Positions 142 to 34,410 of a stretch of DNA of 36,323 bases are shown in pieces. The DNA is from Bacteroidota bacterium (GTDB lineage: Bacteria; Bacteroidota; Bacteroidia; Chitinophagales; Saprospiraceae). The DNA lies in NCBI GenBank assembly GCA_963169325.1, contig CAUJEY010000324.1:1-36323 (forward strand). Direction: 5' to 3'. The translations under genes were made by a program, and so were the position numbers. Below the pieces are notes generated by a model. That model was given only the letters and a program-made list of their open reading frames with translations, ran no database searches and had not been told where the DNA came from. The first letter of the stretch is position 1, and each line of letters begins with the position of its first letter.

Positions 142-208
142 ACATAGGCCACATAGTTTTTTTGATTTTCAAAGGCTTAAAATCTATGTGATCTATGTGC
201 CTATGTGT
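142..208. repeat. Short tandem array with inverted copy, word CTATGTG
   Basis: The word CTATGTG occurs three times head to tail (from 184, 193 and 201; spacing 9 and 8 bp). An inverted pair of the same word lies at 142-156 (ACATAGG then CACATAG). The arms can fold around a loop of about 27 bp. The element sits between the convergent ends of the left-edge gene and pnkp, where a terminator would be expected. It has the same architecture as the arrays near 9826, 14226, 17281 and 26947 but a different word. Confidence 0.7.
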
Positions 209-292
209 TTAAAAATATCAAGTAGTGTGATTCTAGCCTATCAAATATCCATAAACATTGCAATATTTCAAAATTTTCCACGAAACCGCCTC

Positions 293-2851
293 TTACAACC
301 TCGGATCCAACGGCTCACTCTCCAACGCCAGCACCCCAAACACACACGCATGTGTACGCCGCAGCGGCTCGCGCCCTACAAAACGCTCCAGCGCTTCCAT
401 ACCGAGCATAAACTCCCGCATTGCCAGCGAACGTTTGGCTTTGATACCCCGCGATTTCAGCCGCGTCAGGTGTTCCGGCAAGGAGTATTCCGGACCGTAA
501 ATGATGCGCAGGTATTCCTTACCCCGGCATTTTACCGCCGGCTGAAAGATTTCGTGTTCATCGCGGGATACGAAAGACAGGGGTTTGACCACCATGCCTT
601 CACCGCCGGCTGCCGTCATCGTTTCCCACCATTTCGTAGCCGCCGCCTCGCTCGCCGGGTCGTCCAGATGGACCAATTGATGGCGCGTAGCCAGCAGGAG
701 TTCCGGGTTGGCGGCACAAATCGTTTGTATCTGCTCTAAATGCCACAGATGGTCTTTGTCGAAGTACGTTTTCCCCTCGGTCGCCAGCAGGTGAAACGGC
801 GCCAGTTTGTAACCGGCCAGCGACTGTACCGGCCAGCAATACTGGCGGTAAGCCTGTACGAACTGTCCGGCCAACGGCGCGCGCGCCTCAAAACGGGCCA
901 GTAAATCCAGCGCGCCGGGCAGGCGTTCCGCCGTTTGGCGCAAGGCATCTACTGCGGCGCCCAAACCTAAGGTGGCCGCGGCCCCAACCGCCGCATACTG
1001 TTCCTGCAACAACCCCTGCGCTTTTGCCGACCAGGGCATCAGTTCACAATCGAGACAGGCCCAGCCAGTGTTCATTTTTTCCCAAAAATTACTGTCGGTC
1101 AGGGCTTTGGATACCGCTTCCAGGAAGGCTTTTTCCAGAACGGGGTCGTTGAAAAAATTGCGCCCCGTGCGGGTATAACACACCCCGATACCCTCGTTGT
1201 GTACGCCGAAACGCTCGGCTGCCACGTTTTCGTCGCGGCAAACCACCACGATAGCCCGCGAACCCATGTGTTTTTCTTCACAAACGACTTGTTCCTGACC
1301 GCGCTCCCGGTAATAGTTAAAGGCCTCTGCCGGGTGTTCGAGCAAATCCGGCAAAGCGCTGGTTTCACAGGGCGACATAGTAGGCGGCAGGTAAATCAGC
1401 CATTTAGGATTTACCGCGAAGCGGCTCATCACTTCAAAAGCGGCGGCCGACTGCTCCGGACGCACGTGTACGGCACGGCCGAAGCGGGTTTCAATGAAGA
1501 GTTTGCCATGCACATCTTCCATATCAAGCATATCGTCGTACTGCAATTGCAGCGACATCGCCAACGGCAAATCCTTCAACGGACGCACGGGAGCGTAATA
1601 CTCTTCGTGGGCCGCCACGGACACCACTTGCCGCTCCGGATAACGCAGGGCGGTCAGTTTACCACCAAATACGCAACCGGTATCGAGGCAGATGGTGTTG
1701 TTGAACCATTGCGCCTCGGGCGTGGGCGTATGGCCGTACACGACGGCCGCTTTACCGCGGTAGTCGGCAGCCCAGTTGTAGCGTATCGGCAGGCCGAATT
1801 CATCCGTTTCGCCGGTCGATTCACCAAAGAGACAAAACTCGCGGACGCCCCCGGACGTGCGTCCCTGAAAGGCTTCTTTTAATCCCGCATGCGCCACTAC
1901 TAATTTTCCGCCGTCGAGTACATAATGGCTGATCAGGCCGTCGAGAAATTTGCGCACCTGTGCGCGGAATTCCGGCGATTCACCGGCCATCTGTTCGGCC
2001 GTACTTTCCAGGCCGTGCTGGAGTTTTACATTTTTGCCGTCGAGGTATCTGACCAGTTTGATATCGTGGTTGCCGGGCACACAAAGCGCCACGCCGTCCT
2101 GTACCATGCCCATCACCAGCCGCAACACGCCCGGGGAGTCGGGGCCGCGGTCCACGAGATCGCCGACAAAAATGGCCCGGCGGTTTTCCGGGTGCCGCAC
2201 CGTCCAGGAATGCGCTTCCAGGGCGGGCGAAATGAGGTAACCCAGTTTAGACAAAAGTTCGTGCAGTTCCAGCGCGCAACCATGCACGTCGCCGATGATA
2301 TCGAACGGACCCGTTTCGTGTTTGAGATTGTTGAGCAGGCGCGTACGCGTGATGCTTGCGGCATCAATTTCAGCCGTACCGCGCAATACCTCCATAAACC
2401 GGAAACCTTCCTCTTTGAGTTTGCCGATGGAGCGGCGCAGTTGGCGTACATGATTGACCACCACGTGTTTACCCACGTGTTGCCGCTCGGGGCGGGCGGC
2501 ATTGCGCTCGATACAGGTTTCTATTTCTTCGTTCAACACGATCGCCGCGGCAAAAACGTGGTACTCCCGCGCCAGTTCCACAATCCTTTTCCGGTCGTCG
2601 GGATGTATGTTGGTGGCATCGATGACCGTGAGCAGGCCGTTTTTCAGGCGTTTGCGCACGATATAATACAATAGTTCAAAGGCATCGTGACTGGCATCCT
2701 GACGGGTTTCGTCGTCGCATACCCAGGCACGGCAGGCATCGGAACTGATCACTTCCGATGGTTTGAAATGTTTGCGGGCAAAGCTGCTTTTACCGGAGCC
2801 GGTGGAGCCGACAAGCGCCACCAAGCAGAATTCAGGGATTTTTATTTCCAT
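293..2851 (-). CDS. pnkp: Polynucleotide kinase-phosphatase (RNA end-healing and sealing enzyme)
   Basis: This 852-residue protein has the three-module layout of bacterial Pnkp (about 850-870 residues). An N-terminal kinase has a P-loop at residues 15-22 (GSTGSGKS). A central calcineurin-type phosphatase carries GDVHG (187-191), GDLVDRGPDS (230-239), GNHD (260-263) and GHTP (373-376). A C-terminal ligase-type nucleotidyltransferase has the adenylation motif KHMG with candidate Lys527. In the studied family the enzyme phosphorylates 5'-OH ends, removes 2',3'-cyclic phosphates, and with Hen1 reseals cleaved RNA. The start at 2851 is chosen because the kinase domain begins at once and the codon overlaps the end of hen1 by 20 bp. 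A start further upstream at 2941 would add 30 residues lying within hen1 with no family match. All catalytic motifs appear intact. Confidence 0.95.
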   Translation of the reverse strand: MEIKIPEFCLVALVGSTGSGKSSFARKHFKPSEVISSDACRAWVCDDETRQDASHDAFELLYYIVRKRLKNGLLTVIDATNIHPDDRKRIVELAREYHVFAAAIVLNEEIETCIERNAARPERQHVGKHVVVNHVRQLRRSIGKLKEEGFRFMEVLRGTAEIDAASITRTRLLNNLKHETGPFDIIGDVHGCALELHELLSKLGYLISPALEAHSWTVRHPENRRAIFVGDLVDRGPDSPGVLRLVMGMVQDGVALCVPGNHDIKLVRYLDGKNVKLQHGLESTAEQMAGESPEFRAQVRKFLDGLISHYVLDGGKLVVAHAGLKEAFQGRTSGGVREFCLFGESTGETDEFGLPIRYNWAADYRGKAAVVYGHTPTPEAQWFNNTICLDTGCVFGGKLTALRYPERQVVSVAAHEEYYAPVRPLKDLPLAMSLQLQYDDMLDMEDVHGKLFIETRFGRAVHVRPEQSAAAFEVMSRFAVNPKWLIYLPPTMSPCETSALPDLLEHPAEAFNYYRERGQEQVVCEEKHMGSRAIVVVCRDENVAAERFGVHNEGIGVCYTRTGRNFFNDPVLEKAFLEAVSKALTDSNFWEKMNTGWACLDCELMPWSAKAQGLLQEQYAAVGAAATLGLGAAVDALRQTAERLPGALDLLARFEARAPLAGQFVQAYRQYCWPVQSLAGYKLAPFHLLATEGKTYFDKDHLWHLEQIQTICAANPELLLATRHQLVHLDDPASEAAATKWWETMTAAGGEGMVVKPLSFVSRDEHEIFQPAVKCRGKEYLRIIYGPEYSLPEHLTRLKSRGIKAKRSLAMREFMLGMEALERFVGREPLRRTHACVFGVLALESEPLDPRL

Positions 2852-4253
2852 TTTGTTTGGTCTCGTCTTTACGGGTGAATACGGCCATTTGGGAAGGCGC
2901 GCCAAATGCGGCGTCTGTTTCCCCAACGGCCTCTGTTTCAAAAGAATAGCCGAAGCGCTCCCCTACCCCAGCGCACCAGGCGGCGAACTCCGCTTCCGTC
3001 CACTCGAATCGGTGGTCGCTGTGGCGAAAGGCGCCATCGGCGAGCGATTCGTATTTGACATTATAATCGGCGCGCGGTGTGGTGATGATGACCGTGCGTG
3101 GACGGGCAAACCCGAACACGCTGCGTTCCAGCGCCGGCAGCCGGCCCGGATCAACGTGTTCGATCACTTCCACCAGGGCTGCCGCATCGTACCCCTCCAG
3201 CCGGCTGTCGCGGTACGTCAGAGAACCCTGAAAGAGTTCGAAACGGTCTTTTTCCCGTTCCGGCAAACGTTTAAGGTTGAGTTTGTCGGCCGCAATTTCG
3301 AGGCTGCGGATGGATACGTCCATACCCACGATACGTTTGAATTGTTTTTCTTGGGCCAGCAACTTCAACAGTTTGCCTTCGCCGCAGCCCAAGTCCAGCA
3401 CGCTGGTAGCGCCGCTTTGTTGCAAGCGGGCGCAGGCGGTTTGCAGACGCAGCTCATGCAGGCGGATTTTTTCTTCATTTTCCGGCGCAACCACCACCTC
3501 TTCCCCGGGTTCTTCCACCGTTTCTTCCGAAAGTAAGGCATTCATCACGGTTTTGGTCAGGCTACTGCGGTTGTTCAGGTAACGTTTTACAATAAAAGCG
3601 TTTTCCGGGTGCTTTTCGAGCCAGCCGCTGCCTTTGGCCAACAGTTTTTCTACTTCCGGTTTGCCTACATAGTAGTGTTTGTCTTTGTCCATCACCGGCA
3701 ACAACACATATAAGTGGGTGAGCAAATCCTGAAGCCGGCAAGTAGCACTCAGAGAAACCGACAGATAACGGCTCTGGCCCCATTCCGGGAATTTTTCATC
3801 TAAAGGCATCGCTTCGGCCGTTAATTCGTAACCTAAGGGTTCGAATAGTTTGCGCAGCAAAACCTCCCCGCCGCGCACCGACATCACCGGAATATGGACG
3901 ACGAAGGGCCAGGCTTCTTTTGGCATATCCGGTTTGTCGCGGCAATTCCCGTTCATGGCCGAGGTAAAAACACCGGCAATCGCCGTGCTCATCCAGGAAG
4001 AAGTAGCGTAAGGCCGGTCGTTCACATAAGCTTCCAAAGCAAAATCGTTGCCCCGGATTTCCCGGCGGACCAACCCGACCGGGTCAATGTCGAGCAACAA
4101 GGCGGCAGTAGTGTGGTCCTCCGTGGCTTCCGGGTAAAATACATGGGCTTTCCCACCGGGCACGTCGAAGGTTTGAACTTTATCGGGGTGTTTTTGCAAA
4201 AGATATCCCAAGTCGGTGGCGGGATGACGGGTGGTAGAGATGGTCAGAAGCAT
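2832..4253 (-). CDS. hen1: 3'-terminal RNA ribose 2'-O-methyltransferase Hen1
   Basis: This 473-residue protein has the bacterial Hen1 layout. The N-terminal part of about 240 residues corresponds to the module that activates the Pnkp ligase. The C-terminal methyltransferase has a SAM-binding motif LDLGCGEG (286-293), the metal-binding signature EVIEH (362-366) and HSDH (411-414), as in Mn-dependent Hen1 enzymes. In the family it methylates the 2'-OH at the 3' side of a break before sealing, so the repaired junction can no longer be cut by 2'-OH-dependent ribotoxins. It is the first gene of the operon with pnkp and overlaps it by 20 bp, consistent with translational coupling. Roles come from established family knowledge; residues are seen directly. 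Confidence 0.95.
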   Translation of the reverse strand: MLLTISTTRHPATDLGYLLQKHPDKVQTFDVPGGKAHVFYPEATEDHTTAALLLDIDPVGLVRREIRGNDFALEAYVNDRPYATSSWMSTAIAGVFTSAMNGNCRDKPDMPKEAWPFVVHIPVMSVRGGEVLLRKLFEPLGYELTAEAMPLDEKFPEWGQSRYLSVSLSATCRLQDLLTHLYVLLPVMDKDKHYYVGKPEVEKLLAKGSGWLEKHPENAFIVKRYLNNRSSLTKTVMNALLSEETVEEPGEEVVVAPENEEKIRLHELRLQTACARLQQSGATSVLDLGCGEGKLLKLLAQEKQFKRIVGMDVSIRSLEIAADKLNLKRLPEREKDRFELFQGSLTYRDSRLEGYDAAALVEVIEHVDPGRLPALERSVFGFARPRTVIITTPRADYNVKYESLADGAFRHSDHRFEWTEAEFAAWCAGVGERFGYSFETEAVGETDAAFGAPSQMAVFTRKDETKQNGNKNP

Positions 4254-4541
4254 AGGGTGAGTAGTGGAACAGGCGGCCCGCTGGTTATTAGTTTAGCGGG
4301 TGTCCATTTTTACGGTATGTTGGGCGTGAAAATAATCAGGATTTGGAGCAAAACACAAACCGCAGGAAAAATGGTTCCGTATGGCTTCGGCCAAAGCCAA
4401 CTTTCAATTATTTTTGAAAATTTAAAATCAAAATAAAAAACCATTGTCGGGATGATATGTTTGGACTCTTAGAATTTAATTTGGTTCGCCAGAAAAAAGA
4501 GGCGACCAGTCCGGTCAACTGTTCTTGATAATTGTCCTGTC
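4254..4541. other. Divergent intergenic region between hen1 and ndh
   Basis: This 288-bp gap must hold the start signals for both hen1 (minus) and ndh (plus). I see no gene in it. Small hairpins are present: CCCGCT/AGCGGG near 4278-4300, in the hen1 leader, and TCGCC/GGCGA near 4487-4506, in the ndh leader. No box with a full match to TAnnTTTG was found for either gene, unlike many other genes here. A weak candidate for ndh is the TTAATTTG-like stretch near 4475-4484. Confidence 0.5.
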
Positions 4542-5822: not shown

Positions 5823-5856
5823 CCCGCCATGTTAATTATATGCAAACAAAAAAGGG

Positions 5857-5882: not shown

Positions 5883-5942
5883 CGCCACCTTCCAAACGAT
5901 AATAGTATTATCCATTCTCTCAAACTAATTTCTCGACAAGCA

Positions 5943-8751: not shown

Positions 8752-9870
8752 ATGATGCAACATGATTTTTTCAAGGGCCTGAAGGTTGTCGAATTCGCTT
8801 CTGTACTGGCCGGCCCGGCCGTGGGGATGTTTTTTGCCGAACTCGGGGCCGAGGTAATTAAAATTGAAAATAAAACCACCGGTGGCGACGTCACCCGCGG
8901 TTGGAAACTGCCATCCGAAGCCCCCGAATCGTCCATTTCTGCCTATTTTTGTAGCGTCAATTGGGGAAAACAACACCTTTTTTTAGATCTTAACGATGCT
9001 GCCGACCGGCATACTGCCCTGGAATTGGCCATCGCGGCCGATGTGGTAATTTCCAATTTTAAACCCAGCGCGGCGCGCCGCATGGGTGTTGATCCCGAAA
9101 GCCTGCGCACCCGGAATCCACGCCTGACCTACGCACAACTCAATGCGTTTGCCGACCCCGAAGATGAAAGTCCGGCATTCGACGTAGTGCTCCAGGCCGA
9201 AGCCGGATTTATGTACATGACCGGAGAACCCGGCCGGCTACCCGTGAAAATGCCCGTAGCCCTGATCGACTTGCTGGCTGCCCACCAACTCAAAGAAGCC
9301 GTTTTACTGGCCCTGCTCCAACGCGAACGCAGTGGCGAAGGCAGCATCGTGTCGGTCTCGCTGCTCGAATGCGCCCTGGCATCGCTGGCCAACCAGGCAA
9401 CCAACTGGCTCATGGCCGATTATATTCCGCAGCGCATGGGCGCCCAACATCCGAATATCGCGCCCTATGGTGATACTTTTCTTTGCTCCGACGGACAATA
9501 TATACTACTTGCCGTTGGAACAGAGCGGCAATTTCAGCAACTTTGCCGCTGTTTGCCGACAGCGCATTTATTACAAAATCCTGATTTTCAAACCAATCGA
9601 ATGCGGGTAAAATACCGGGCGGCATTAAATGAAACCCTGGCTGCCGTTTTGTGTTTAAAAAGCCTCGACGACTGGATGACCCTGTTTAAAACCCAGGGCG
9701 TACCGGCGGCCCGTATCCGGAATATGCAGGCAGTATTTGAAATGCCCGCCGCGCAGGCGATGATCCTGGAAGAAACATTGCCCGATGGGACGATTACACA
9801 GCGGGTAAAAAGCAATGCGTTTAAAATTAATGTGGTCAATGAGATCAATGTGGTCAATTTTCAAATTTAA
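8752..9870 (+). CDS. CaiB/BaiF family (class III) CoA-transferase
   Basis: The 372-residue product has the family N-terminus (LKVVEFASVLAGPAVGMFFAELGAEVIKIE), a D-V-T-R-G segment after it, and the mid-protein region with PVALIDLLAAH, whose Asp is the likely catalytic nucleophile. Class III transferases move CoA between carboxylic acids; the acid pair cannot be told from sequence. The gene could also start at the second ATG (8755). The last 14 residues (INVVNEINVVNFQI) are encoded by a 9-bp repeat array and are not family sequence, so the ancestral C-terminus was probably replaced or extended by the repeat. The enzyme family assignment is firm; the substrate is unknown. Confidence 0.9.
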   Translation: MMQHDFFKGLKVVEFASVLAGPAVGMFFAELGAEVIKIENKTTGGDVTRGWKLPSEAPESSISAYFCSVNWGKQHLFLDLNDAADRHTALELAIAADVVISNFKPSAARRMGVDPESLRTRNPRLTYAQLNAFADPEDESPAFDVVLQAEAGFMYMTGEPGRLPVKMPVALIDLLAAHQLKEAVLLALLQRERSGEGSIVSVSLLECALASLANQATNWLMADYIPQRMGAQHPNIAPYGDTFLCSDGQYILLAVGTERQFQQLCRCLPTAHLLQNPDFQTNRMRVKYRAALNETLAAVLCLKSLDDWMTLFKTQGVPAARIRNMQAVFEMPAAQAMILEETLPDGTITQRVKSNAFKINVVNEINVVNFQI

Positions 9871-9935
9871 CAATTGTTGCAATTAACCACATTGATCTCA
9901 TTGACCACATTGACCACATTGACCACATTAATAAT
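9826..9935. repeat. 9-bp tandem arrays in inverted pair, word TGTGGTCAA
   Basis: The left arm has three 9-bp units, TGTGGTCAA TGAGATCAA TGTGGTCAA (9831-9857). The right arm is their reverse complement with two extra copies: from 9884, TTAACCACA TTGATCTCA and three TTGACCACA units. The variant unit TGAGATCAA is second from the loop in both arms. The left array encodes the C-terminus of the CoA-transferase; the right array ends just before the mrp start codon. Because the unit is 9 bp, gain or loss of a unit keeps the reading frame. Confidence 0.93.
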
Positions 9936-9936
9936 T

Positions 9937-13623: not shown

Positions 13624-14214
13624 ATGTTTTCTCCAAATTTTATCCAAACGACAGTCGGACTTATCTTCGGCGTATTTACCCTGTTAAAAGGACAATCGCC
13701 CTGCGCTGATGCTTGCCGGCATACCGCTCCGCCAGCCGATTCCGCGGCGGCAGCAACAACGGTCGCATCCGAAATGATCTCCCCTTCCGGTAAAAGCCGT
13801 TTTTGGGAGCACCTCGAGTTTACGGGTGGTCAACTGACCCTGCCATTCAAAATTCGCCCAAAAGCCGAAACAGAATCGTTCCGGCTGACTACGGATGTCA
13901 CGGTAGGCGGATTTATAGGCATGACCAAACGGCTCTCCAGTGTCAAAGAAATTTTCCTGACCATTCCCCTGGCAGCGGGACTTACCTTCATCAACCTGAA
14001 CAACGACAACACGTTTTTAGACAAGTCGGTACAGGAAGCCGAAGTGGTGCCCGGTATTACCTGGAGTACAGGGCTCATTTTACAGTTGGAAAAATACAGC
14101 CTGGGGTTCATGTTCGGCAAAGACTATGCCAGCGAGGTCGGCAACCAATGGAAATACCACGGCCGGATGTGGTGGTCGTTCGGGATCGGGTTTACGTTTG
14201 TACGCGAAGAATGA
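13624..14214 (+). CDS. Predicted secreted beta-barrel-like protein
   Basis: This 196-residue protein begins with a hydrophobic stretch (about residues 8-23) that could be a signal peptide, followed by a Cys/Ala-rich low-complexity region. From about residue 60 it shows alternating polar/hydrophobic strands (for example TVGGFIGMTKR, TIPLAAGLTFINL, GLILQLEKYSLGFMFG) and ends in a strand with terminal aromatics (IGFTFV). This pattern suggests a small outer-membrane barrel. I do not recognise a named family. It converges with the hydroxyacyl-CoA dehydrogenase gene across an inverted 8-bp array. Confidence 0.65.
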   Translation: MFSPNFIQTTVGLIFGVFTLLKGQSPCADACRHTAPPADSAAAATTVASEMISPSGKSRFWEHLEFTGGQLTLPFKIRPKAETESFRLTTDVTVGGFIGMTKRLSSVKEIFLTIPLAAGLTFINLNNDNTFLDKSVQEAEVVPGITWSTGLILQLEKYSLGFMFGKDYASEVGNQWKYHGRMWWSFGIGFTFVREE

Positions 14215-14225
14215 ATGAATTGTTA

Positions 14226-14337
14226 GTGTTTACGTGTTATAGTGTTTTGGTGTTTTCGTGCCTCAGTGTTTTCGTGCTCTACGAGCGTACTAAAAACTGA
14301 AGCACTAGAACACGAAAACACAAAAACACTAAAACAC
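14226..14337. repeat. 8-bp tandem arrays in inverted pair, word GTGTTTTN
   Basis: The left arm (14226-14281) is seven 8-bp units: GTGTTTAC, GTGTTATA, GTGTTTTG, GTGTTTTC, GTGCCTCA, GTGTTTTC, GTGCTCTA. The right arm (14290-14337) is six 8-bp units in reverse complement: CTAAAAAC, TGAAGCAC, TAGAACAC, GAAAACAC, AAAAACAC, TAAAACAC. The odd unit GTGCCTCA/GTGCTTCA (TGAAGCAC) is fifth from the outside in both arms. GCTC/GAGC near 14276-14286 closes the loop. The array lies between two convergent gene ends and touches the stop codon of the minus-strand gene. Confidence 0.93.
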
Positions 14338-14338
14338 A

Positions 14339-15226
14339 TCATTTAAACCGCTCGGCCACTACTAAATCCTTACTTCCCGGTGTGTACAAGTAGAATCCTT
14401 CGCCCGATTTGGCGCCCAACTTCCCGGCAGTCACCATATTTACCAGCAAGGGACAAGGCGCATATTTCGGGTTGCCAAATCCGTCGTGCAAAACACGCAA
14501 AATAGCCAGGCATACATCGAGCCCGATAAAATCGGCCAGTTGAAGCGGCCCCATCGGGTGGGCCATGCCGAGTTTCATCACCGTGTCGATTTCTTCCACG
14601 CCGCTGACACCTTCGTAAAGCGTATAAACCGCCTCGTTGATCATGGGCATCAGGATCCGATTGGCCACGAAGCCGGGGTAGTCGTTCACTTCTACCGGCA
14701 CTTTACCCAATTGGCGGGAAAGTGCCATAATGATTTGCGTGACCTCGCCGGTGGTCGCATAGCCACGAATGACCTCAACCAGTTTCATCACCGGTACCGG
14801 GTTCATGAAGTGCATACCGATAACCTGGGCAGGGCGTTTTGTGACTGCTGCAATTTTGGTGATGCTGATGCTGCTGGTATTCGTGGCCAGGATAGCGCCG
14901 GCGGGAGCATACTTGTCCATGTCGGCAAAAATCTGGAGTTTCAACGCCACATTTTCGGTGGCAGCCTCCACGACGAGGTCGGCATTGGCCACACCGGACG
15001 GCAGGTCGGTCATGGGGTGAATGCGGTTCAAGATGGCCGCTTTATCTGCTTCCGTGAGCGTGCCTTTACTGATCTGGCGATCGAGGTTTTTCCCGATAGT
15101 GGCCAGCGCTTTGTCCAGCACCGCCGAAACCACATCAACTAAGGTGACTTCGAAGCCGTTTTGGGCAAATACATGCGCGATTCCATTGCCCATGGTGCCG
15201 CCGCCGATAATGGTGATATTTTTCAT
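14339..15226 (-). CDS. 3-hydroxyacyl-CoA (3-hydroxybutyryl-CoA) dehydrogenase
   Basis: The 295-residue protein has the N-terminal NAD-binding motif GGGTMGNGIAHVFAQNG (8-24), the family signature around the catalytic His (GMHFMNPVPVMKLVEVIRG), and the C-terminal dimer domain with MAHPMGPLQLADFIGLDV. It oxidises (S)-3-hydroxyacyl-CoA with NAD, or runs in reverse, in fatty-acid or butanoate metabolism. Length (about 285-300) fits the single-domain Hbd/PaaH group. It is the last gene of a probable operon with the upstream PorQ-like gene (35-bp gap). Confidence 0.95.
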   Translation of the reverse strand: MKNITIIGGGTMGNGIAHVFAQNGFEVTLVDVVSAVLDKALATIGKNLDRQISKGTLTEADKAAILNRIHPMTDLPSGVANADLVVEAATENVALKLQIFADMDKYAPAGAILATNTSSISITKIAAVTKRPAQVIGMHFMNPVPVMKLVEVIRGYATTGEVTQIIMALSRQLGKVPVEVNDYPGFVANRILMPMINEAVYTLYEGVSGVEEIDTVMKLGMAHPMGPLQLADFIGLDVCLAILRVLHDGFGNPKYAPCPLLVNMVTAGKLGAKSGEGFYLYTPGSKDLVVAERFK

Positions 15227-16095: not shown

Positions 16096-17277
16096 TCAAA
16101 CCGTCAGGCCGTTTTGCTGCGCAACTTTTTCATAAAAAAGTCCGGCATCCGTCATGGAACGGTCCATCGTTTCGAGATTGACCCGCACCAACCCGAAACG
16201 GTATGTAGGCCCCAGGTTCCATTCGAAGTTGTCCCAGGTGCTCCAATGGATATAACCGCGCAGGTCCACGCCGTCGCGGATGGCCTCGTGGCATACTTTC
16301 AGGTAGTCCTGTAATGCCCTGATCCGCTGCTGATTGTCCTCCGTGCAGATACCGTTCTCCGTGATAATGATCGGTTTCTGATATTTTTTCCAAAACCGGC
16401 GCAGCAACTTGCCAAGACCATCGGGGCGGTAAATCCACATCTTGTCGTGCGGCAACTGGCGCTTTCGTACCGCATCTGGCCGGTTGATATAATCGATCGG
16501 AAAAGGATCAAATAACAGGCAGGCGTAATAACTGAGCCCCCAGAAATCGCATTTTTGGAAAGGTTTTGCGGCCCGGTCGAGAAACCACCAGCGGGCAAAT
16601 GCCGCCGGCAACACCCCGAGTCGGTTGGCGGGTTTGAAAAGGGCTGTGTTCAGCGATATACCAACGGGCGCGTCTTTAAATTTTTCCCGGATGAGCGTCA
16701 GCGCAATCAGGTGGGCTTTTCCCATGTTGTCCAGCACCCGGTTGGCCATAAAATACCGCCGTTTTTGGTACGGCGGAAAGTCGCCCGAAAAGAAGGCGTT
16801 GTATGCGTACACATTGGGTTCGTTAAACGTGTTCCAGTAACTTGCAAATTCGCCGAAATGTTTGATGCATTGCTGCGTGTAATGGACAAAGAACGGAATG
16901 TTATCCTCCTTCGTCCAACCGCCTTGCGCTTCAAACCAGTTGGGATGGCAGAAATGATGCAGTACGAACATCAACTTTACCCCCTTTGCTTTCAACAATT
17001 TAAAAAAGGCACGGTATTCCTCAACGACCTCCGGCTCGAATTTAGCCATCGGCTCCAGTTGCAACCGCGACCAATCGACCCCGCAGCGGTATATCGATCC
17101 GAATCGGGCGATGTACCCGGCGTCTTCCTCGCGGCGCAGTTCATGGTCGGTCGTTCGCTCAAAACGATAGCCGTCTTTTGCTACCAAACCCCGCCAGGGA
17201 TGGTCGCCGGCGGTTTCCACCTGCGCCGCAGCCGTTGAGGTGCCCCAAAAAAAGTGATCTGGAAAGGGAAGAAACAT
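16096..17277 (-). CDS. Glycoside hydrolase family 1 (beta-glucosidase-like)
   Basis: This 393-residue enzyme carries both GH1 catalytic motifs: acid/base TFNEP (Glu153) and nucleophile TENG (Glu307). It starts at the usual place with FPDHFFWGTSTAAAQVE, and the substrate-site residues of the QVE segment and W-x-x-Y-N regions are present. At 393 residues it is shorter than the usual 440-480, mainly in the loops, as in a subgroup of bacterial GH1 enzymes. No signal peptide, so it is probably cytoplasmic. Likely activity is on beta-glucosides or beta-galactosides; the exact sugar cannot be read. It is the first gene of a probable three-gene operon. Confidence 0.93.
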   Translation of the reverse strand: MFLPFPDHFFWGTSTAAAQVETAGDHPWRGLVAKDGYRFERTTDHELRREEDAGYIARFGSIYRCGVDWSRLQLEPMAKFEPEVVEEYRAFFKLLKAKGVKLMFVLHHFCHPNWFEAQGGWTKEDNIPFFVHYTQQCIKHFGEFASYWNTFNEPNVYAYNAFFSGDFPPYQKRRYFMANRVLDNMGKAHLIALTLIREKFKDAPVGISLNTALFKPANRLGVLPAAFARWWFLDRAAKPFQKCDFWGLSYYACLLFDPFPIDYINRPDAVRKRQLPHDKMWIYRPDGLGKLLRRFWKKYQKPIIITENGICTEDNQQRIRALQDYLKVCHEAIRDGVDLRGYIHWSTWDNFEWNLGPTYRFGLVRVNLETMDRSMTDAGLFYEKVAQQNGLTV

Positions 17278-17280
17278 GAT

Positions 17281-17389
17281 TCGTTATTTCGTCATTTCGT
17301 CATTAGGTCATTTCGTCATTGGGTCATTTCGTCATTGTAGTAATGACCCAATGACGAAATGCCCCAATGACGAAATGACCTAATGACTA
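17281..17389. repeat. 8-bp tandem arrays in inverted pair, word TCGTCATT
   Basis: The left arm has seven 8-bp units from 17281: TCGTTATT, TCGTCATT twice, AGGTCATT, TCGTCATT, GGGTCATT, TCGTCATT. The right arm from 17342 has AATGACCC, AATGACGA, AATGCCCC, AATGACGA, AATGACCT, AATGACTA. Bases 17305-17336 pair with 17350-17381 at 31 of 32 positions, loop 13 bases, so the order of variant units is mirrored. It starts 3 bp before the GH1 start codon, on the leader side, and directly follows the terminator of the small-RNA candidate to its right. Confidence 0.95.
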
Positions 17390-17404
17390 AGCAATGACAT
17401 AAAT

Positions 17405-17441
17405 AAAAAAAGCCCCTCACCGCGAGCCAAACCGGAGGGGC
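17405..17441 (-). terminator. Terminator of the 17405-17645 small-RNA candidate
   Basis: Read on the minus strand, GCCCCTC pairs with GAGGGGC (17435-17441 with 17412-17418) and is followed by seven Ts (17411-17405). The loop is GC-rich. Confidence 0.85.
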
Positions 17442-17645
17442 AACCATGAGATTATAATGGTACAATCAGTGAACCAGAAGAAACGGTGCATACGCAAAAC
17501 GTATACATTCATCTGCTACGAATTGTAGCCAATTACGGGTCGTGTGGTTCGGATTAAAGCAAAGAATACTTTAAAATCGGGAATAAAAGCGGTTGGGAGA
17601 GCTTAAACTAAAAACTACGGATTAGGAAGAAAATGCCGCTTTGGG
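17405..17645 (-). ncRNA. Candidate structured small RNA (class not recognised)
   Basis: A minus-strand transcription unit of about 240 nt is framed by a strong promoter (17651-17680) and an intrinsic terminator (17405-17441). Between them are potential hairpins: AAAGCGG/CCGCTTT (17636-17642 with 17586-17592), GCTAC/GTAGC (near 17515-17528) and GTATACG/CGTATGC with a TTTTG loop (17489-17507). A 31-codon reading frame (17417-17512, minus) rich in aromatic residues (RFFWFTD) ends inside the terminator hairpin, so a leader peptide of an attenuator is an alternative. The next gene downstream on this strand is the GH1 enzyme, about 130 bp beyond the terminator. Neither a tRNA nor another RNA class I know fits by eye. 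Confidence 0.6.
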
Positions 17646-20494: not shown

Positions 20495-20550
20495 GGTTGC
20501 TTTCTAACAGTATGTCGGTAAGAAGTATGTTTTTCTTTACGGAAAGGCTG

Positions 20551-20596
20551 AAAAAAACAGCCCTCCGCCCTTTCTCATTCGAAAGGGCCGGAGGGC
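20551..20596 (-). terminator. First terminator of the RNA candidate
   Basis: A 15-bp stem with one bulged base (20581-20596 with 20560-20574; GCCCTCCGGCCCTTTC on the minus strand), a six-base loop and TGTTTTTTT. It is strong and GC-rich. Confidence 0.9.
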
Positions 20597-20903
20597 CCCC
20601 GCCTTCGGTTTACTTATCCCGGTACGCCTTGTGGCCCCCGGCTTATATCTTGTTGTTGAACCTTTGTTCAACTTTATTTTTTCGTTCTCGCACTTGAGCA
20701 GGTATTCTAAAACACCATTTCAATCTTTTATTCGAGTCAATTTTGCCGGTAACCGGCTCAAAGTGCTTTGGATAGCAAAGTTTAATCAGTATGCTACCAA
20801 GGTTTTCTGGTATTGAGATCCACCTTCATCAGATTGGGAAACGGGTGAAGGTTTTCCGGGCTTAATATTGTTATGGTTTTTATGTCGGTCGTAAATGATG
20901 ATG

Positions 20904-23365: not shown

Positions 23366-23449
23366 GCGGGAATGGCGGAATTGGTAGACGCATACGTTTC
23401 AGGGGCGTACGCCCGTAAGGGTGTGGGGGTTCGACTCCCCCTTCCCGCA
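23366..23449 (+). tRNA. tRNA-Leu (anticodon CAG)
   Basis: An 84-nt cloverleaf: acceptor stem GCGGGAA/TTCCCGC with discriminator A73, D arm GCG...CGC, anticodon stem TACGT/GCGTA with loop TTCAGGG (anticodon CAG at 23400-23402), a long variable arm CGCCCGTAAGGGTGT, and T arm GGGGG-TTCGACT-CCCCC. The long variable arm and A73 mark class II tRNA-Leu. CCA is not encoded. It reads CUG codons. Confidence 0.97.
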
Positions 23450-26902: not shown

Positions 26903-26943
26903 AAAGCGGCTGACCGGTTTCTACCGGTCTGCCGCTTTATTTT
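26903..26943 (+). terminator. rplS terminator
   Basis: A 15-bp stem with one mismatch (26903-26917 with 26924-26938, AAAGCGGCTGACCGG) and a TTTCTA loop, then ATTTT. It is directly followed by a 7-bp repeat array. Confidence 0.88.
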
Positions 26944-26946
26944 AAA

Positions 26947-27009
26947 GTCAAAATGTAAAAGTGGGCGCGTAGCCTATTACATTTTGACTTTTGACTTTTA
27001 CATTTTGAC
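26947..27009. repeat. 7-bp tandem arrays in inverted pair, word TTTTGAC
   Basis: The right part is five 7-bp units from 26975: TATTACA, TTTTGAC, TTTTGAC, TTTTACA, TTTTGAC. The left part is the inverted pair GTCAAAA TGTAAAA (26947-26960). The segments AAAGTCAAAATGTAA (26944-26958) and TTACATTTTGACTTT (26978-26992) pair perfectly over 15 bp; the outermost right units offer a second pairing partner. It lies between the convergent ends of rplS and pruA. Confidence 0.9.
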
Positions 27010-27017
27010 TTCCCTCT

Positions 27018-28649: not shown

Positions 28650-28655
28650 ATCTTT

Positions 28656-28762
28656 AATGATGAATTATAAATGATGAATGATGAATTTCTAATGGCGATC
28701 AATGACGAAATGACGATCAATGACGATCAATGACGATCAATGTCGAAATGACGATCAGTGAC
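28656..28762. repeat. Mixed 7-, 8- and 10-bp tandem array, words AATGATG and AATGACGATC
   Basis: The whole gap between coaD and pruA is one array. It has five 7-bp units (AATGATG, AATTATA, AATGATG, AATGATG, AATTTCT; 28656-28690), then AATGGCGATC, AATGACGA, three AATGACGATC, AATGTCGA, AATGACGATC and a final AGTGAC. All units begin with AAT or AGT. There is no inverted arm here. The word AATGACGA is shared with the array at 17281-17389. Confidence 0.92.
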
Positions 28763-28767
28763 AAACT

Positions 28768-29252: not shown

Positions 29253-29280
29253 CGGCACAAACAATCTAAAATCGGAAAAC

Positions 29281-29778: not shown

Positions 29779-29794
29779 TAAGAATCTAAATATT

Positions 29795-29839
29795 AAAAAA
29801 AGCGCCATCCGCAGTATTTAAGGGGATGGCGCTTTTTTT
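29795..29839. terminator. Bidirectional terminator between barrel gene and oxidase cluster
   Basis: Seven As and GCGCCATCC (29795-29810) pair with GGATGGCGC and seven Ts (29824-29839). The stem with A and T tracts works on both strands and serves the two convergent genes. Confidence 0.93.
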
Positions 29840-29849
29840 ATAAGTTTTC

Positions 29850-30113
29850 TCAAGCAGTACCTTTCATGTCTTCCGCCTGATTTTTGCGGTTACGCCACCA
29901 CCAAAATCCGATGGTTGCCACCAGCAGGTACGGCAGGAACAACATGTAAAGTATACCGGTATTCAACCCACGCCCGTCGGTACCGCCGTTGGCCATGTTC
30001 GATTCGGCCGACATCCTACACATCGGACATTGCGCAGAAAGATCGGACGTAATAAAGCAAAATAACAGCGTCAATATCGCCAGTGCCAAACCCGTTTTAA
30101 ATATCTTTTTCAT
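29850..30113 (-). CDS. Small membrane protein with CPMC motif at the end of the oxidase cluster
   Basis: The 87-residue protein has a hydrophobic N-terminal helix (about 8-26, possibly a cleaved signal, ...LSAQ), then CPMCRMSAESNMANGG with a CxxC pair, and a second membrane helix (about 53-71) followed by a basic tail. The CxxC would lie on the outside of the inner membrane. Its place behind the DUF420 gene suggests a role in cytochrome oxidase assembly, for example thiol or metal handling; this is inference. The stop is 10 bp from a bidirectional terminator. Confidence 0.7.
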   Translation of the reverse strand: MKKIFKTGLALAILTLLFCFITSDLSAQCPMCRMSAESNMANGGTDGRGLNTGILYMLFLPYLLVATIGFWWWRNRKNQAEDMKGTA

Positions 30114-30137
30114 ATTATACAGATTTATAACTTTCTT

Positions 30138-30695
30138 CTAATAATAAGGCTTGAGCATCAGATAACATATCGGACCCGTAATCGCTACATATAACCATAC
30201 AGGGAAGACCCAACGGGCCATTTTACGGTGCCGGGCATATTGGCCGGTGTAAGCCCTGTTAAAGGTAAGTAAGATGAACGGCAGGATTACGGCCGCCAGT
30301 ACAACATGCGTTATCAGCAAAAAGAAATATGCGTACCGAACTGAGCCTTCACCCCCGAAACGGGTTTCTGCAGTAGTGAAGTGATACAACACATACGAAA
30401 CCAAAAACAATGCGGAACAAACGAATGCGGCATAAATAGACCGGCGATGCGCTTCCACATTTTTATTCCGGATAAAATAGTAGGCCAGCAGCAGAAAAAC
30501 GGCTGCCACGGCATTCAGACTTGCATGAACCGGGGGTAAAAAACTAAAGTCGATACCCAAGTCGATTTTTATCCGGCGCATCAAAACCACCAGGGCCAGC
30601 ACCACTACCGACACGATATAGGCTACGATATTGAGTCGTTTTTCCAGCTTCCTGCTTTCATCAGTGGAGTTGTCGCTCCTTTCTTGCACACTCAT
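30138..30695 (-). CDS. DUF420 membrane protein (oxidase assembly, CtaM-like)
   Basis: The 185-residue protein has about five membrane helices (from 25, 50, 85, 120 and 160) and the conserved histidine-containing phrases FLPPVHASLNAVAAVFLLLAYYFIRN, AHRRSIYAAF and LITHVVLAAVILPFILLTFNRAY. These are typical of DUF420. Relatives in Gram-positive bacteria (CtaM/YozB) are needed for haem-copper oxidase maturation. The position next to a Sco-like gene and the oxidase genes supports such a role. It starts 9 bp after the Sco-like stop codon. Confidence 0.88.
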   Translation of the reverse strand: MSVQERSDNSTDESRKLEKRLNIVAYIVSVVVLALVVLMRRIKIDLGIDFSFLPPVHASLNAVAAVFLLLAYYFIRNKNVEAHRRSIYAAFVCSALFLVSYVLYHFTTAETRFGGEGSVRYAYFFLLITHVVLAAVILPFILLTFNRAYTGQYARHRKMARWVFPVWLYVAITGPICYLMLKPYY

Positions 30696-30704
30696 AATTC
30701 GTGT

Positions 30705-31334
30705 TTACTTATTGGGCAACAATAAAGCAATATGTTCTACCATACGGCCGATCTCTTTTTCATCCAGGGCATTGTAGAAACGGCGTATAGTGCCGGATGT
30801 ATCGGAGAGTGCAAAATATTCCGCAGAAGGCTGAATGCCGTTTTTCTGGCAATAGGCATCGTAACCATTGACCAGAATAGTGCGCCAGGAACCCATACCA
30901 CCGGTCCACACCCAGTTGACTAAATTGGCAGTAGGTAATGTTTGTGCAAGGGTTTTGAATTCAGCCGTCCCGCCTTCGGCAATCATTACTAACCGGAAAA
31001 AGTTTTCCTCATTGCCGCCTTTATATCCAAATTGTTGCACTAATCGCTCCCCTGTTTGTAAAATAGCACGGTTCTCCAATGTCAGGTCGGGGTTTGGTCC
31101 AAAAAAATGCAGCACACAAATTTTCTCTTTGAGCAGATTTTCTTTGGTACCATCCGCATAAATAATGGACGCACTCCTGATTTTTCCATAATCCTGCAAC
31201 TCAGCCTGTGCTGCTTTACGCCAGTTAAGTCCACCCCGAAGATAAAACCAAGAACCCGCCGGCAACACAACTAATATCACGAACAGAACGACAAAAATGA
31301 ATGCTTTGCGTTTGTCCGACACTTTTTCACTCAT
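30705..31334 (-). CDS. Sco-like thioredoxin-fold protein lacking copper ligands
   Basis: The 209-residue protein has one N-terminal membrane anchor (about 11-31) and a periplasmic thioredoxin-like domain. In Sco proteins the strand after the start is followed by CPDxC; here the aligned segment is FFGPNPDLTLEN, with Asn81 and Thr85 in place of the two cysteines. The later conserved His is also not visible (YFALSDTSGTIRRFYN). It therefore cannot bind copper as classical Sco does. The Sco assignment rests on fold-like pattern and on its neighbours (DUF420, oxidase genes). It may be a regulatory or degenerate paralogue of a true Sco encoded elsewhere. Confidence 0.7.
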   Translation of the reverse strand: MSEKVSDKRKAFIFVVLFVILVVLPAGSWFYLRGGLNWRKAAQAELQDYGKIRSASIIYADGTKENLLKEKICVLHFFGPNPDLTLENRAILQTGERLVQQFGYKGGNEENFFRLVMIAEGGTAEFKTLAQTLPTANLVNWVWTGGMGSWRTILVNGYDAYCQKNGIQPSAEYFALSDTSGTIRRFYNALDEKEIGRMVEHIALLLPNK

Positions 31335-31366
31335 AGTAAAAACACATTAGATTATTGACGCTCAAC

Positions 31367-31394
31367 AAAAAAGGCGGGGTTTTGTTGCCCCGCC
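31367..31394 (-). terminator. Internal terminator between cox4 and the Sco-like gene
   Basis: On the minus strand GGCGGGG pairs with CCCCGCC (31394-31388 with 31379-31373), then six Ts (31372-31367). It is 10 bp after the subunit IV stop codon and 33 bp before the Sco-like start codon. Confidence 0.85.
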
Positions 31395-31403
31395 TCCGAT
31401 ATT

Positions 31404-31841
31404 TTACCCTTTGTTTTGTTCGGTGATGCCGGGCAGCCAATAACCTTGCGGTTGACTTGCCGGGACTGGTTTGATAATCTCTTCATTTTTTTCTTTGATC
31501 AGTTCCCTGCGAGCGCCCCAAGAACTACCTTCCTGGAAAAAGGCAATGATAGCCCATACCAACAGCCCTGTAGGTAGCAACACACTCATGGCCAATCCGC
31601 GCACTTCATAAGCCATGTGCATAAAGAAAAAGATAATAAAGTACGCTTTGTACAGTGAAAAGCCAATCATAAGCAACATATACAGGTAATGCCCGAAGCC
31701 TTCGGAGAACTTAATACCATGTACCAGATGCCCTTTAGCTAACAAGGCAACTAAAACTTCTACTATTGTGATGGCGCCGAGCAGCTTCAAGCCATAAAAG
31801 ACAAGCGCTTTTTGCTCTTCATAAGTTTGATGTCCAGCCAT
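31404..31841 (-). CDS. Cytochrome c oxidase subunit IV (prokaryotic type)
   Basis: The 145-residue protein has three membrane helices (about 17-35, 52-75 and 82-102) and the family phrases GLKLLGAITIVEVLVALL and SLYKAYFIIFFFMHMAYEVRGL, in which the KAY..IFFFMHM helix is characteristic of prokaryotic COX4. It stabilises the oxidase complex and has no cofactor. The C-terminal 40 residues are polar. It is the last gene before the internal terminator. Confidence 0.9.
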   Translation of the reverse strand: MAGHQTYEEQKALVFYGLKLLGAITIVEVLVALLAKGHLVHGIKFSEGFGHYLYMLLMIGFSLYKAYFIIFFFMHMAYEVRGLAMSVLLPTGLLVWAIIAFFQEGSSWGARRELIKEKNEEIIKPVPASQPQGYWLPGITEQNKG

Positions 31842-31878
31842 TTTTTAAAACAGTAAGATTGGTGAGACAGTTAAATTT

Positions 31879-32814
31879 TTATAACAAGTAAAAAACCAGG
31901 AACACGAACACCCAAACCAAGTCCACAAAGTGCCAGTATAGTCCAATTTTTTCCACCATCTCATAACCGTTTCTCCGGGCCGCATACACGCCGCCGGCAG
32001 CATTGATCATGATAATTGTCAGAAACAACACACCGGAAAATACGTGAAAACCGTGAAAGCCGGTAATAAAGAAGAACAGAGCACCGAAAGCTTTCGGTCC
32101 CATTTCTGCTTCCCGTACCTGTCCGGCATAAGCGCCCGTGGTATATTTTATTTTGGTTCCCTCATGCTGGACCATCTTTTCACCCCGCTGTGAAGCATCG
32201 TGAAAAACCAGGCCGGTAGGGTGGCCGTCATGAATATGCATGAGATAACTTTCACCCTTATGAAACTCCAGGGGTGAACCATCGGGCTTTTTAGCCTCGG
32301 AACCATTTTCATTCAGGTATACGCCATCGGCGATATGCCGGCCAAACGGATTTTGGCTCAAGCTCATGTTTTCCTTAACGATCAACGTCGTCCATTCGTA
32401 GGCTTGAGATCCCAGGAAGGTAGCCCCACCCAAAATGGTCAGCAGCATCCAGAAAACAACCCCTTTTTGGTTTTCGCGGTGCCCTTCCTGCACGGCGCGT
32501 ACCATCGTAACCGAACTGAAAATCAGGACGAAGGTCATAAAGGTTACAAAGATCAACGGCCAGTGTGCCTGCACGAAAGGAAGTGAACCGAATACAAAGT
32601 CCGGTTCCGGCCAGGTCGGCATACTGAAACGAAGGGCGCCATAGGCAATCAAAAATCCGGCGAACGTAAACGCATCGGACAGTAGGAAATACCACATCAT
32701 TAGTTTGCCGTAACTCGCCTTAAACGGCTCTTTCGCGCCTTCCCAGAGTTGTGCTTCCTCCGAGTGATCGTGTTCGTGCATTTCGTGTGCGTGTGTAACA
32801 GATGTTTCTGCCAT
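31879..32814 (-). CDS. Cytochrome c oxidase subunit III, with large hydrophilic insert
   Basis: The 311-residue protein has the subunit III core: MMWYFLLSDAFTFAGFLIAYGALRF, a long second helix region, and the conserved end FFITGFHGFHVFSGVLFL ... YWHFVDLVWVFVFLVFYLL. Two features are unusual. A His-rich N-terminus (HAHEMHEHDH) precedes the first helix, and a hydrophilic insert of about 95 residues (roughly 140-235) separates two helices where subunit III normally has a short loop. The subunit stabilises the binuclear centre in subunit I. The ATG at 32814 is preferred to a TTG two codons upstream. Confidence 0.92.
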   Translation of the reverse strand: MAETSVTHAHEMHEHDHSEEAQLWEGAKEPFKASYGKLMMWYFLLSDAFTFAGFLIAYGALRFSMPTWPEPDFVFGSLPFVQAHWPLIFVTFMTFVLIFSSVTMVRAVQEGHRENQKGVVFWMLLTILGGATFLGSQAYEWTTLIVKENMSLSQNPFGRHIADGVYLNENGSEAKKPDGSPLEFHKGESYLMHIHDGHPTGLVFHDASQRGEKMVQHEGTKIKYTTGAYAGQVREAEMGPKAFGALFFFITGFHGFHVFSGVLFLTIIMINAAGGVYAARRNGYEMVEKIGLYWHFVDLVWVFVFLVFYLL

Positions 32815-32862
32815 AATCAACAGTTATTGATAGGTAGTAGGATCGTTAAGTGTTTCCGTTTT

Positions 32863-33438
32863 TCAGGATTGAATCATAAAAAATACGACTAAATATACCC
32901 AAAGTATATCTACAAAATGCCAGTATTGAACCACCAGGTCAAATCGCAATTTGCGACGGGCTGTTGGTTTGAACGGCAGATAAAACGCATGAACCATAGC
33001 CACTATCAATGCGGCAACGCCTCCCAGCACGTGCGCAGCATGTAATCCGGAGATCACAAAAACAAATGAACTGGATGGGTTAACCGTAAAAGTGGCGCCC
33101 ATTGCATTCATGGCTTTCCACCCCTGATATTGGAGTATGACGAATGCCAGACCGAGCACAAAAGTGGTCAGGAGCAATACCTTGTAGCGGGTTTCCATTC
33201 CCTTTACAAAAGACCGGTACGACCAGTGGAGCGTTACGCTACTGGCCAGAATGACCAAAGTATTCAGAAAAAATATATCCGGCAGTTTAAATTCATACCA
33301 GTTGCCGGCTGCCCGGCGAACAATATAAGCGCTGGTGAACGCCCCGAACATCATAATGATCGTAGCGATACCCACCCACAGCGCAAGTTTGTGCTGGTGA
33401 ATTTTATTTTGATTGTATTCAGAAACAACTGCACCCAT
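32863..33438 (-). CDS. Cytochrome c oxidase subunit III, short form
   Basis: The 191-residue protein has five predicted membrane helices and the subunit III signatures AFTSAYIVRRAAGNWYEFKLP, FVISGLHAAHVLGGVAALIVAMVHAFYLP and the end VQYWHFVDILWVYLVVFFMI. Two subunit III-type genes in tandem are usual in Bacteroidota caa3 clusters; the two are paralogues with different lengths. It lies 48 bp upstream of the long form. Confidence 0.92.
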   Translation of the reverse strand: MGAVVSEYNQNKIHQHKLALWVGIATIIMMFGAFTSAYIVRRAAGNWYEFKLPDIFFLNTLVILASSVTLHWSYRSFVKGMETRYKVLLLTTFVLGLAFVILQYQGWKAMNAMGATFTVNPSSSFVFVISGLHAAHVLGGVAALIVAMVHAFYLPFKPTARRKLRFDLVVQYWHFVDILWVYLVVFFMIQS

Positions 33439-33457
33439 AAGATTGTGCTTATTTTTC

Positions 33458-34357
33458 TTAAATTTTATCCAATAACAATACGATTAACGACAACGGCAAG
33501 TGCAAAAAAGAAGCAAACATTTGCCGCCTCGCCGCCTCGCGTGTGCAGGTCCGGTACAATTGCCAACTCCTCCAAGCAAAAAAGGCATTCAGAGCAAGCA
33601 AAGCAAGCGTGGCGATAAACCCGCTAAAACCAAGCCAGTATCCCAGCAAAGCATTGACCAGCATCGCAATACAAAACAAAAACGACAGGAACCCCGTAGT
33701 GGAGTTCTTCTCCCCATTGCGCGACGGAAGCATAAAAAATCCGGCGCGTTTATAATCTTCGTCAGCCAACCAGGCAATAGACCAATAATGCGGAAACTGC
33801 CAGAGAAACTGAATCGTAAACAACATCAGTGCCGTGTTCGTCAGCACACCATCCCAAGCAGTGCATCCGATAACCAGCGGTAGCGCTCCGGGAACCGCAC
33901 CAACTGCTACAGCCAGTGGGGACGAACGTTTCAAAGGCGTGTAAATGAACGCATAGCTAATCAGCGACAGCATCCCCAAAAAGCCGGTCAGCGGATTGAA
34001 TAGCGATAATATAGATACACCAAAAAGCGCCATCAGGCCTGCAAGCAATACCGCGTTGGACACACTCATTCGGCCTGTAGCCACGGGACGATTGGCCGTT
34101 CGCGGCATCAAGCGGTCATAATCGCGTTCCAAAACCTCGTTCAAAGCATTTGAAGCACCGGTCACTAAAAACCCTCCGATAGCAAGGAGCGTGAACCCGA
34201 CCCAATTTGCTTGTCCTGCCCCGGCAATAGCATAAGCCATAAGGGCAGAAAAAAGTACCATGATGGACAACTTAAACTTCACCAGCAAGCCAAAATCAGC
34301 CATTGCCTGCGTCAAATTCGCCCAAATCGAAAGTTGTTGTGCCGGATTGCGCTCCAT
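33458..34357 (-). CDS. ctaB: Protohaem IX farnesyltransferase (haem O synthase)
   Basis: The 299-residue protein is a UbiA-type prenyltransferase with the haem O synthase motif ASNALNEVLERDYDRLMPRTANRPV (N-x3-D-x2-D type, with D around residues 80-85) and about nine membrane helices. It attaches farnesyl to protohaem for haem O, the precursor of haem A used by the oxidase. It lies 58 bp after coxA; the gap has degenerate TTATAAAC repeats. Confidence 0.96.
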   Translation of the reverse strand: MERNPAQQLSIWANLTQAMADFGLLVKFKLSIMVLFSALMAYAIAGAGQANWVGFTLLAIGGFLVTGASNALNEVLERDYDRLMPRTANRPVATGRMSVSNAVLLAGLMALFGVSILSLFNPLTGFLGMLSLISYAFIYTPLKRSSPLAVAVGAVPGALPLVIGCTAWDGVLTNTALMLFTIQFLWQFPHYWSIAWLADEDYKRAGFFMLPSRNGEKNSTTGFLSFLFCIAMLVNALLGYWLGFSGFIATLALLALNAFFAWRSWQLYRTCTREAARRQMFASFLHLPLSLIVLLLDKI

Positions 34358-34359
34358 TG

Positions 34360-34410
34360 TTATAAACCTGCTCTAAACCTTTATAAACGCTTATAAAACT
34401 TTTTTAAACC
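34360..34410. repeat. Degenerate direct repeats, word TTATAAACC
   Basis: The gap between coxA and ctaB holds TTATAAACC (34360-34368), TCTAAACC (34372-34379), TTATAAACG (34381-34389), TTATAAAAC (34391-34399) and TTTTAAACC (34402-34410), with irregular spacing of 9-12 bp. It is less regular than the other arrays in the window and has no inverted arm. Confidence 0.55.

Follow-up and report, generated by a model that had tools for sequence, protein, structure and literature searches.

Short-word arrays with inverted arms are dispersed through the intergenic gaps of a Saprospiraceae genome

Intergenic gaps of a Saprospiraceae bacterium (Bacteroidota; assembly GCA_963169325.1) and of many of its congeners harbor real, abundant, inserted arrays of short words that form hairpins. 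Six arrays lie on contig 324 (CAUJEY010000324.1) of this 8.07-Mb, 349-contig assembly, a stretch of 36,323 nucleotides referred to below as the window. The arrays are abundant, belong to word families, often carry inverted arms, have clean empty counterparts at two sites and are biased in position relative to neighboring genes; in one close species pair, the two arms change mostly independently. We consider it fairly probable that they are dispersed, inserted, non-autonomous hairpin-satellite repeats, grown by slippage and tolerated away from promoters.

Results

The main sample comprised the window and 40 further stretches (734 kb, containing 377 gaps and 79 kb of gap sequence), with genes called by a custom codon-usage script instead of a standard gene finder, which small genes may escape. 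Arrays, defined by a Tandem Repeats Finder (TRF) score of at least 50 with units of 6–20 bp, occupied 58 of the 377 gaps; ten dinucleotide shuffles of the gaps gave a mean of 0.6 and a maximum of 2. The initial annotation had proposed such a scan as the test of its arrays, and they prove far commoner than in shuffled sequence. Hairpins scoring at least 36 were present in 90 gaps (shuffle mean 0.9, maximum 2), and in 37 of these the arms were at least half tandem repeat. Across the first 341 kb, where coding sequence makes up 87%, 38 arrays fell in gaps and 7 were mainly coding. Extrapolated from the sample, ~640 gaps genome-wide would hold an array. Short tandemly repeated repetitive sequences (STRRs) of cyanobacteria are likewise intergenic repeats of short words, and the unit of STRRs and long simple sequence repeats (LSSRs) is 5–11 bp; the tandem units of ~7–10 bp found here, mainly intergenic and above chance, agree with that description.

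The comparison set comprised 41 congeners and the genome itself (42 genomes of the genus). Arrays occupied 8 of 127 gaps in congener G007 and 16 of 96 in G005, and across three genomes, 47 of 81 arrays (TRF ≥50) had an inverted partner in the same gap (score ≥24). Gaps between divergently transcribed genes were shunned: an array (TRF ≥50) or array hairpin was present in 5 of 75 divergent gaps versus 63 of 302 others (p 0.004), and in G005 and G007 together arrays were present in 0 of 46 divergent versus 25 of 177 other gaps (p 0.003). This is the pattern that purifying selection near promoters would leave.

Array density per congener rests on 3–17 kb each and was used for presence only. Eight congeners (G001, G002, G011, G013, G018, G019, G054 and G055), with assemblies of 3.2–4.3 Mb and, in six cases, no match to PF01797, were free of arrays over the 36 kb sampled, with genome size and the small samples as confounders. 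Arrays are present in G015 and G049, which are also small assemblies and only 76–77% complete.

The initial annotation had listed seven arrays in the window, five of them mirrored hairpins; six arrays and all five hairpins are upheld. Folds were evaluated with RNA parameters against 200 dinucleotide shuffles, and for none of the five hairpins did any shuffle fold as well. The array at 142–208 consists of the word CTATGTG/CACATAG, with a left arm at ~142–156 and a right arm at ~184–208 (138–212, z −3.9). The second, termed 9826 (9830–9934), is built from ATTGACCAC with the odd unit ATTGATCTC (9826–9934, z −8.9). The third, 14226, spans 14224–14340 and carries the word GTGTTTTN around a loop GTGCTCTACGAGCGTAC (z −8.6 over the same interval). 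The fourth, 17281 (17284–17406), uses the words TTCGTCAT/TGGGTCAT and yields the strongest fold (17280–17406, z −14.4), and the fifth, 26947 (26944–27012), uses TTTTGAC/TTTTACA (26942–27014, z −6.0). TRF and folding agree on all five. At 28656 (28652–28766), TRF detects two abutting direct arrays, AATGATG followed by AATGACGATC, which are unmirrored and fill the whole gap; this interval does not fold (z +2.1) and is tandem only. The remaining site, 34360, drops out: 34358–34412 gave no TRF row at score 30 and z −1.0, and is neither array nor hairpin. Single matches to G020 and G022 cross it, and the G047 match is broken there.

The words are not private to their sites. With a looser TRF threshold of 40, 92 array gaps resolved into 28 word clusters, and 76 of the gaps fell in 12 multi-locus clusters; clustering was by single linkage on common 6-mers, which lumps some loosely related words. 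Every confirmed window array has word relatives elsewhere in its own genome or in congeners. The 17281 element gives 113 matches across the window's genome when both strands and overlapping places are counted, and copies of ~115 bp of the 14226 element lie on contigs C76, C234, C132, C95, C318 and C333 of the same genome as well as in congeners G005, G048, G044, G046 and G006. Among 18 inspected copies, 12 of them from congeners, the loop CTCTACGAGCGTACT is common to 14226 and the C76 copy, and the remaining loops look unrelated. The 26947 words recur at L045:1008–1101, L058:17412–17503, L240:3514–3598 and L247:6582–6676, and those of 142, 9826, 26947 and 28656 turn up again in G050, G047, G022 or G020.

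At the level of the class, GTGTTTTN ×3 occurs in 5 of 295 genomes (81 occurrences in the window's genome, 1–4 in the other four), and AATGACNN ×3 in 7 of 295 (102 in the window's genome, 58 in G170, 1–9 in the others). Some of 20 regions taken from these hits are mirrored and many are not. AATGACNN arrays also appear in another family of the class (L324–L338; genomes G170, G287 and G336), some mirrored and others direct only. Because the words form families shared genome-wide, the dominant feature is the dispersal of elements, not their separate origin at each site, and the inference from a private word per array to the absence of a mobile repeat fails.

Two window elements have clean empty sites and, by alignment, appear to be clean insertions relative to G050. 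The equivalents of window positions 14212 and 14342 are separated by 10 bases in G050, versus 129 in the window, with the junction intact; the 14226 array is also absent from G047. At 9826, 2 bases of G050 separate the sequence that matches up to 9829 from that matching from 9935 on, and the upstream stop there overlaps the downstream ATG. The left arm of the 9826 array lies within the 3′ end of open reading frame (ORF) 8752–9870, an exception to the position between genes that the initial annotation ascribed to all arrays and that holds in general. The 9826 element parts the two genes, and an array-coded tail, NVVNEINVVNFQI, makes up the last residues of the upstream protein (window 8752–9936).

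Other sites vary among congeners as well. Similarity to G050 contig C432 ends exactly at 142, and matches to 142–218 sit elsewhere in G050 and in G022. At 17281, L062, L063 and G047 (L062 and G047 probably represent a single genome) retain an adjacent GAGGGGC hairpin and its place, and other sequence replaces the array. At 26947, the array is missing from G047, which retains a terminator-like hairpin; G024, G042 and G002 have different hairpins and likewise no array. The gap orthologous to 28656 ranges from 6 to 540 bp across 19 genomes including the window's own; in the 18 congeners it contains no array or other words, among them one word common to G016 and G006 and an unrelated one common to G043 and G046. 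G053 retains about two AATGATG units.

The fate of the arms was followed in two species pairs, neither of which includes the window's own species. In the closer pair, G007 versus G009 (109 orthologous gaps, flanks 96.4% identical), 11 gaps hold an array, 8 of them in both species and 3 in one only. Of 318 pair-observations in array stems, 28 were single-arm changes and 1 was paired; 551 plain-stem observations gave 36 single, 3 paired-complementary and 2 paired-non-complementary changes. At L289:1234, the two species differ by about a dozen units in one arm, and its partner is unchanged in length. Single-arm mutation and slippage thus dominate in the close pair, and some joint change is seen in the wider one.

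These observations are best drawn together as follows. Runs of a 7–10 bp word, often as two inverted arms, would enter intergenic gaps as whole units, each insertion copying an element from elsewhere, as the loop common to 14226 and its C76 copy suggests. After arrival, slippage would lengthen or shorten the arrays and drive their length, mutation would act mostly arm by arm, and loss would come last. The elements may be near neutral, persisting where harm is least, that is, outside gaps shared by two promoters.

Several findings weigh against this account. No mover of the elements was identified. AATTA flanks 9826 on both sides, and the matching single site is not seen in G050; no clear target-site duplication was found at 14226, nor one consistent across 9826 and 14226. 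The outer ends of the elements are not conserved. The flanks of the G050 empty sites are only ~73–85% alike, and precise loss in G050 is therefore possible. Finally, in the wider pair, G046 versus G043 (36 gaps, 87% alike), 482 array-stem observations included 41 single, 14 paired-complementary (~1.2 expected under independence) and 7 paired-non-complementary changes. This paired excess is compatible with copying between arms, with compensatory selection or with replacement of elements, and independent drift does not account for it. Plain stems show a paired excess in both species pairs too: 3 paired-complementary changes versus 0.3 expected in G007/G009, and 5 versus 1.4 in G046/G043 (203 observations; 38 single, 5 paired-non-complementary). 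Each hairpin was counted from both species' sides, so that independent events number about half of these counts and Poisson odds are overstated.

The joint changes bear on a rival that we regard as doubtful but serious, in which arm-templated repair, that is, template switching at stalled forks (quasi-palindrome correction), makes and renews the mirrored order in place. The initial annotation had suggested such copying; its expectation of joint arm change fails in G007/G009, where the arms change mostly independently and length change can be one-sided, and is partly borne out in G046/G043. Seven G046/G043 gaps were scored four ways, with arms picked for complementarity, which favors likeness within a locus: in four, L346:1277 (threshold class plain), 16913, 19402 and L347:12393 (whose versions look unrelated), both within-species arm scores exceeded both between-species scores, and in three, L346:2128, L352:4074 and L352:6706, a between-species score exceeded a within-species one. 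Among arms of one word family, the partner took first place (rank no higher than 1.5) in 13 of 38 cases for GTGTTTT and in 15 of 42 for AATGAC, the latter arms again picked for complementarity, where ~1 would be expected. The 17281 arms ranked 1 and 1 among 41, as local copying predicts, but the 14226 arms ranked only 23 and 30.5 of 37.

Unit order was assessed by permutation. The matching order of odd units in the two arms, noted by eye in three arrays, was sustained at 17281 with 8-bp units (p 0.031/0.035; 0.17/0.16 with 16-bp units) and unsupported at 9826 (p 0.51/0.68) and 14226 (p 0.56/0.26). With 81 arrays tested, only 8 of the 47 that have partners reached p<0.05, versus 2.4 by chance, and the idea that unit order is generally equal was rejected.

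The orthologous gap L183:1163–1504 / L186 of the G046/G043 pair contains a very large hairpin, with stem scores of 139 and 325 and a difference of ~300 bases between the two species.

A high-copy palindrome family (L346:2128, 16913, 19402) has the core CGTAGAGTRYACC with mirrored tandem words extending outward. Matches to this core number 215 in G043, 182 in G046, 54 in G006, 50 in G016, 21 in G048 and 19 in the window's genome, with 0–5 in the other 36 genomes; the reversed-pattern control gave 0 in each of the six. Arms in G043 and G046 often read, inward, as tandem words followed by CGTAGAGTACAC, and the inner core is common to different word families. Within the main sample, gaps contain CTCTACG 22 times (0.254/kb) and coding sequence 30 times (0.046/kb).

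A shared, gap-enriched core of this kind is what one would look for if the elements were of the repetitive extragenic palindrome doublet (REPIN) or miniature inverted-repeat transposable element (MITE) type, moved by a Y1 transposase resembling the REP-associated tyrosine transposases (RAYTs), or by another transposase, that reads a GTAG-tagged core. Y1 matches (PF01797) are present in 34 of the 42 genomes, including 3 in the window's genome. We nevertheless find this explanation unlikely. The GTAG-bearing core occurs in part of the elements and is missing from 9826, 17281 and 28656, and its 19 matches in the window's genome are few against an estimated ~640 gaps with arrays. The number of Y1 matches does not track core counts: G043 and G046 have 2 each, and G020 has 9 with 2 core matches. 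A PF01797 search gave no match in G047 or G053, both 96% complete, yet G047 carries at least 8 loci of the 9826 family, and 2 gaps with arrays lie in the 8 kb sampled from G053. Dependence on a RAYT was accordingly rejected; by that feature membership among REPs or REPINs fails, and the resemblance in behavior remains.

A more speculative alternative, distinctly improbable in our judgment, is that the elements are non-autonomous mobile palindromes recognized by their shape and not by their sequence. One mover, present across these Saprospiraceae, would copy any hairpin-forming word array into gaps, with a GTAGAGTRYAC core favored in one branch and arms partly re-copied. If so, dozens of unrelated word families would be spread side by side by a mover that recognizes form.

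Last among the rivals, and very unlikely, is that the arrays are RNA structures selected as terminators, 3′-end protectors or leader switches: the strong folds, the paired changes in G046/G043 and an excess of array hairpins in convergent gaps (14 of 56, versus 22 of 246 co-directional, p 0.002; divergent 1 of 75) speak for it, but conserved hairpins distinct from the arrays at 17281 and 26947 persist where the array is absent, orthologous gaps hold no array or other words, and 17281 adjoins a start codon, not a 3′ end. Co-directional array hairpins in three genomes have 53 G–U and 59 A–C oppositions (p 0.64), a balance that leaves no RNA-pairing signature; plain co-directional hairpins have 127 and 95 (p 0.037). 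Among co-directional hairpins, a T-run comes after 5 of 33 in the array class and 7 of 64 in the plain class, a test that discriminates little because plain hairpins also mostly lack the run (57 of 64). The terminator reading was therefore set aside on account of the separate neighboring hairpins and the lack of a G–U excess, and transcription termination, one of the functions put forward in the initial annotation, is unsupported.

The neighboring hairpins are features in their own right. The 17281 array is flanked by the start codon of ORF 16096–17277 (minus strand) and by a conserved GCCCCTCCGG...GAGGGGC hairpin with a T-run (17405–17440, minus strand), 3′ of a PorV2-like gene; the region 17405–17465 is 93% identical in G022 and is also found in L062 and L063. 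A conserved terminator-like hairpin, AAAGCGGCTGACCGG..., at 26903–26939 adjoins the 26947 array and occurs in G047 (L159). PorV2 and one sorting tail represent type IX secretion among the window proteins. A non-coding interval in a convergent gap, 20498–20612, matches G022 (97% over 60 bp) and G020 (84% over 110 bp) more closely than most coding matches there and has no Rfam match. Against Rfam 15 at gathering score, a tRNA at 23366–23449 was the sole match in the window, and the arrays had none.

Discussion

Elements of this kind remodel roughly every sixth or seventh gap of the genome. Since a given gap can be filled in one congener and empty in another, it is possible to trace site by site how short-word hairpins arise, how they grow and how their two arms behave toward each other. 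Their role and spread are left open in the papers cited below. Our literature search, which mostly did not reach subscription journals, returned no account of mirrored word arrays in Saprospiraceae.

The nearest parallel is found in Xanthomonas (and Nostoc), where the heptamers GGGAATC and GGGGA(C/T)T form intergenic arrays for which no function had been found (Rehm 2015, PMC4692102). As described there, 70 of 186 repeat patterns in Xcc and 75 of 183 in Xac form inverted pairs capable of stem-loops, the arrays are rare between divergent genes, and their length varies among close species (PMC4692102). The arrays described here share with them the same word inverted within one gap and the under-representation of divergent gaps. 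They differ in that the Xanthomonas arrays use a single word in each genome, one with G-quadruplex potential (PMC4692102), whereas many word clusters with no G-tract requirement are found here, and clean empty sites are shown.

TAACTGA repeats, reported from Beggiatoaceae, cyanobacteria and five Bacteroidetes (MacGregor 2015, PMC4679880), are also intergenic tandem heptamers, patchy across phyla and in some cases missing at the same place in close relatives. In BOGUAY, 169 direct sets stand beside one inverted case (PMC4679880). Those repeats are direct, of one word and mostly just upstream of start codons; the present arrays are often mirrored and of many words.

REP and REPIN sequences are dispersed intergenic inverted pairs that form hairpins (Di Nocera 2013, PMC3733652; Bertels and Rainey 2011, PMC3116915), and the GTAG-bearing core found in part of the present elements recalls GTAG-tagged REPs (PMC3733652). 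Compared with REPINs, the arms here are tandem words, the families are unrelated in sequence, and there is no fixed unit of 20–40 bp; unlike REP/RAYT systems, the elements also occur in genomes with no detected Y1 transposase. A stem of repeated words is known from the P6b stem-loop of the Nostoc trnL intron, where seven-base repeat motifs undergo whole-repeat insertions and deletions on one or both sides (Kaasalainen 2015, PMC4476775). That stem lies inside one intron RNA, and the arrays here are dispersed. Short-word intergenic repeats are thus known; what is new here is that more words are involved than in the compared systems and that empty sites are shown.

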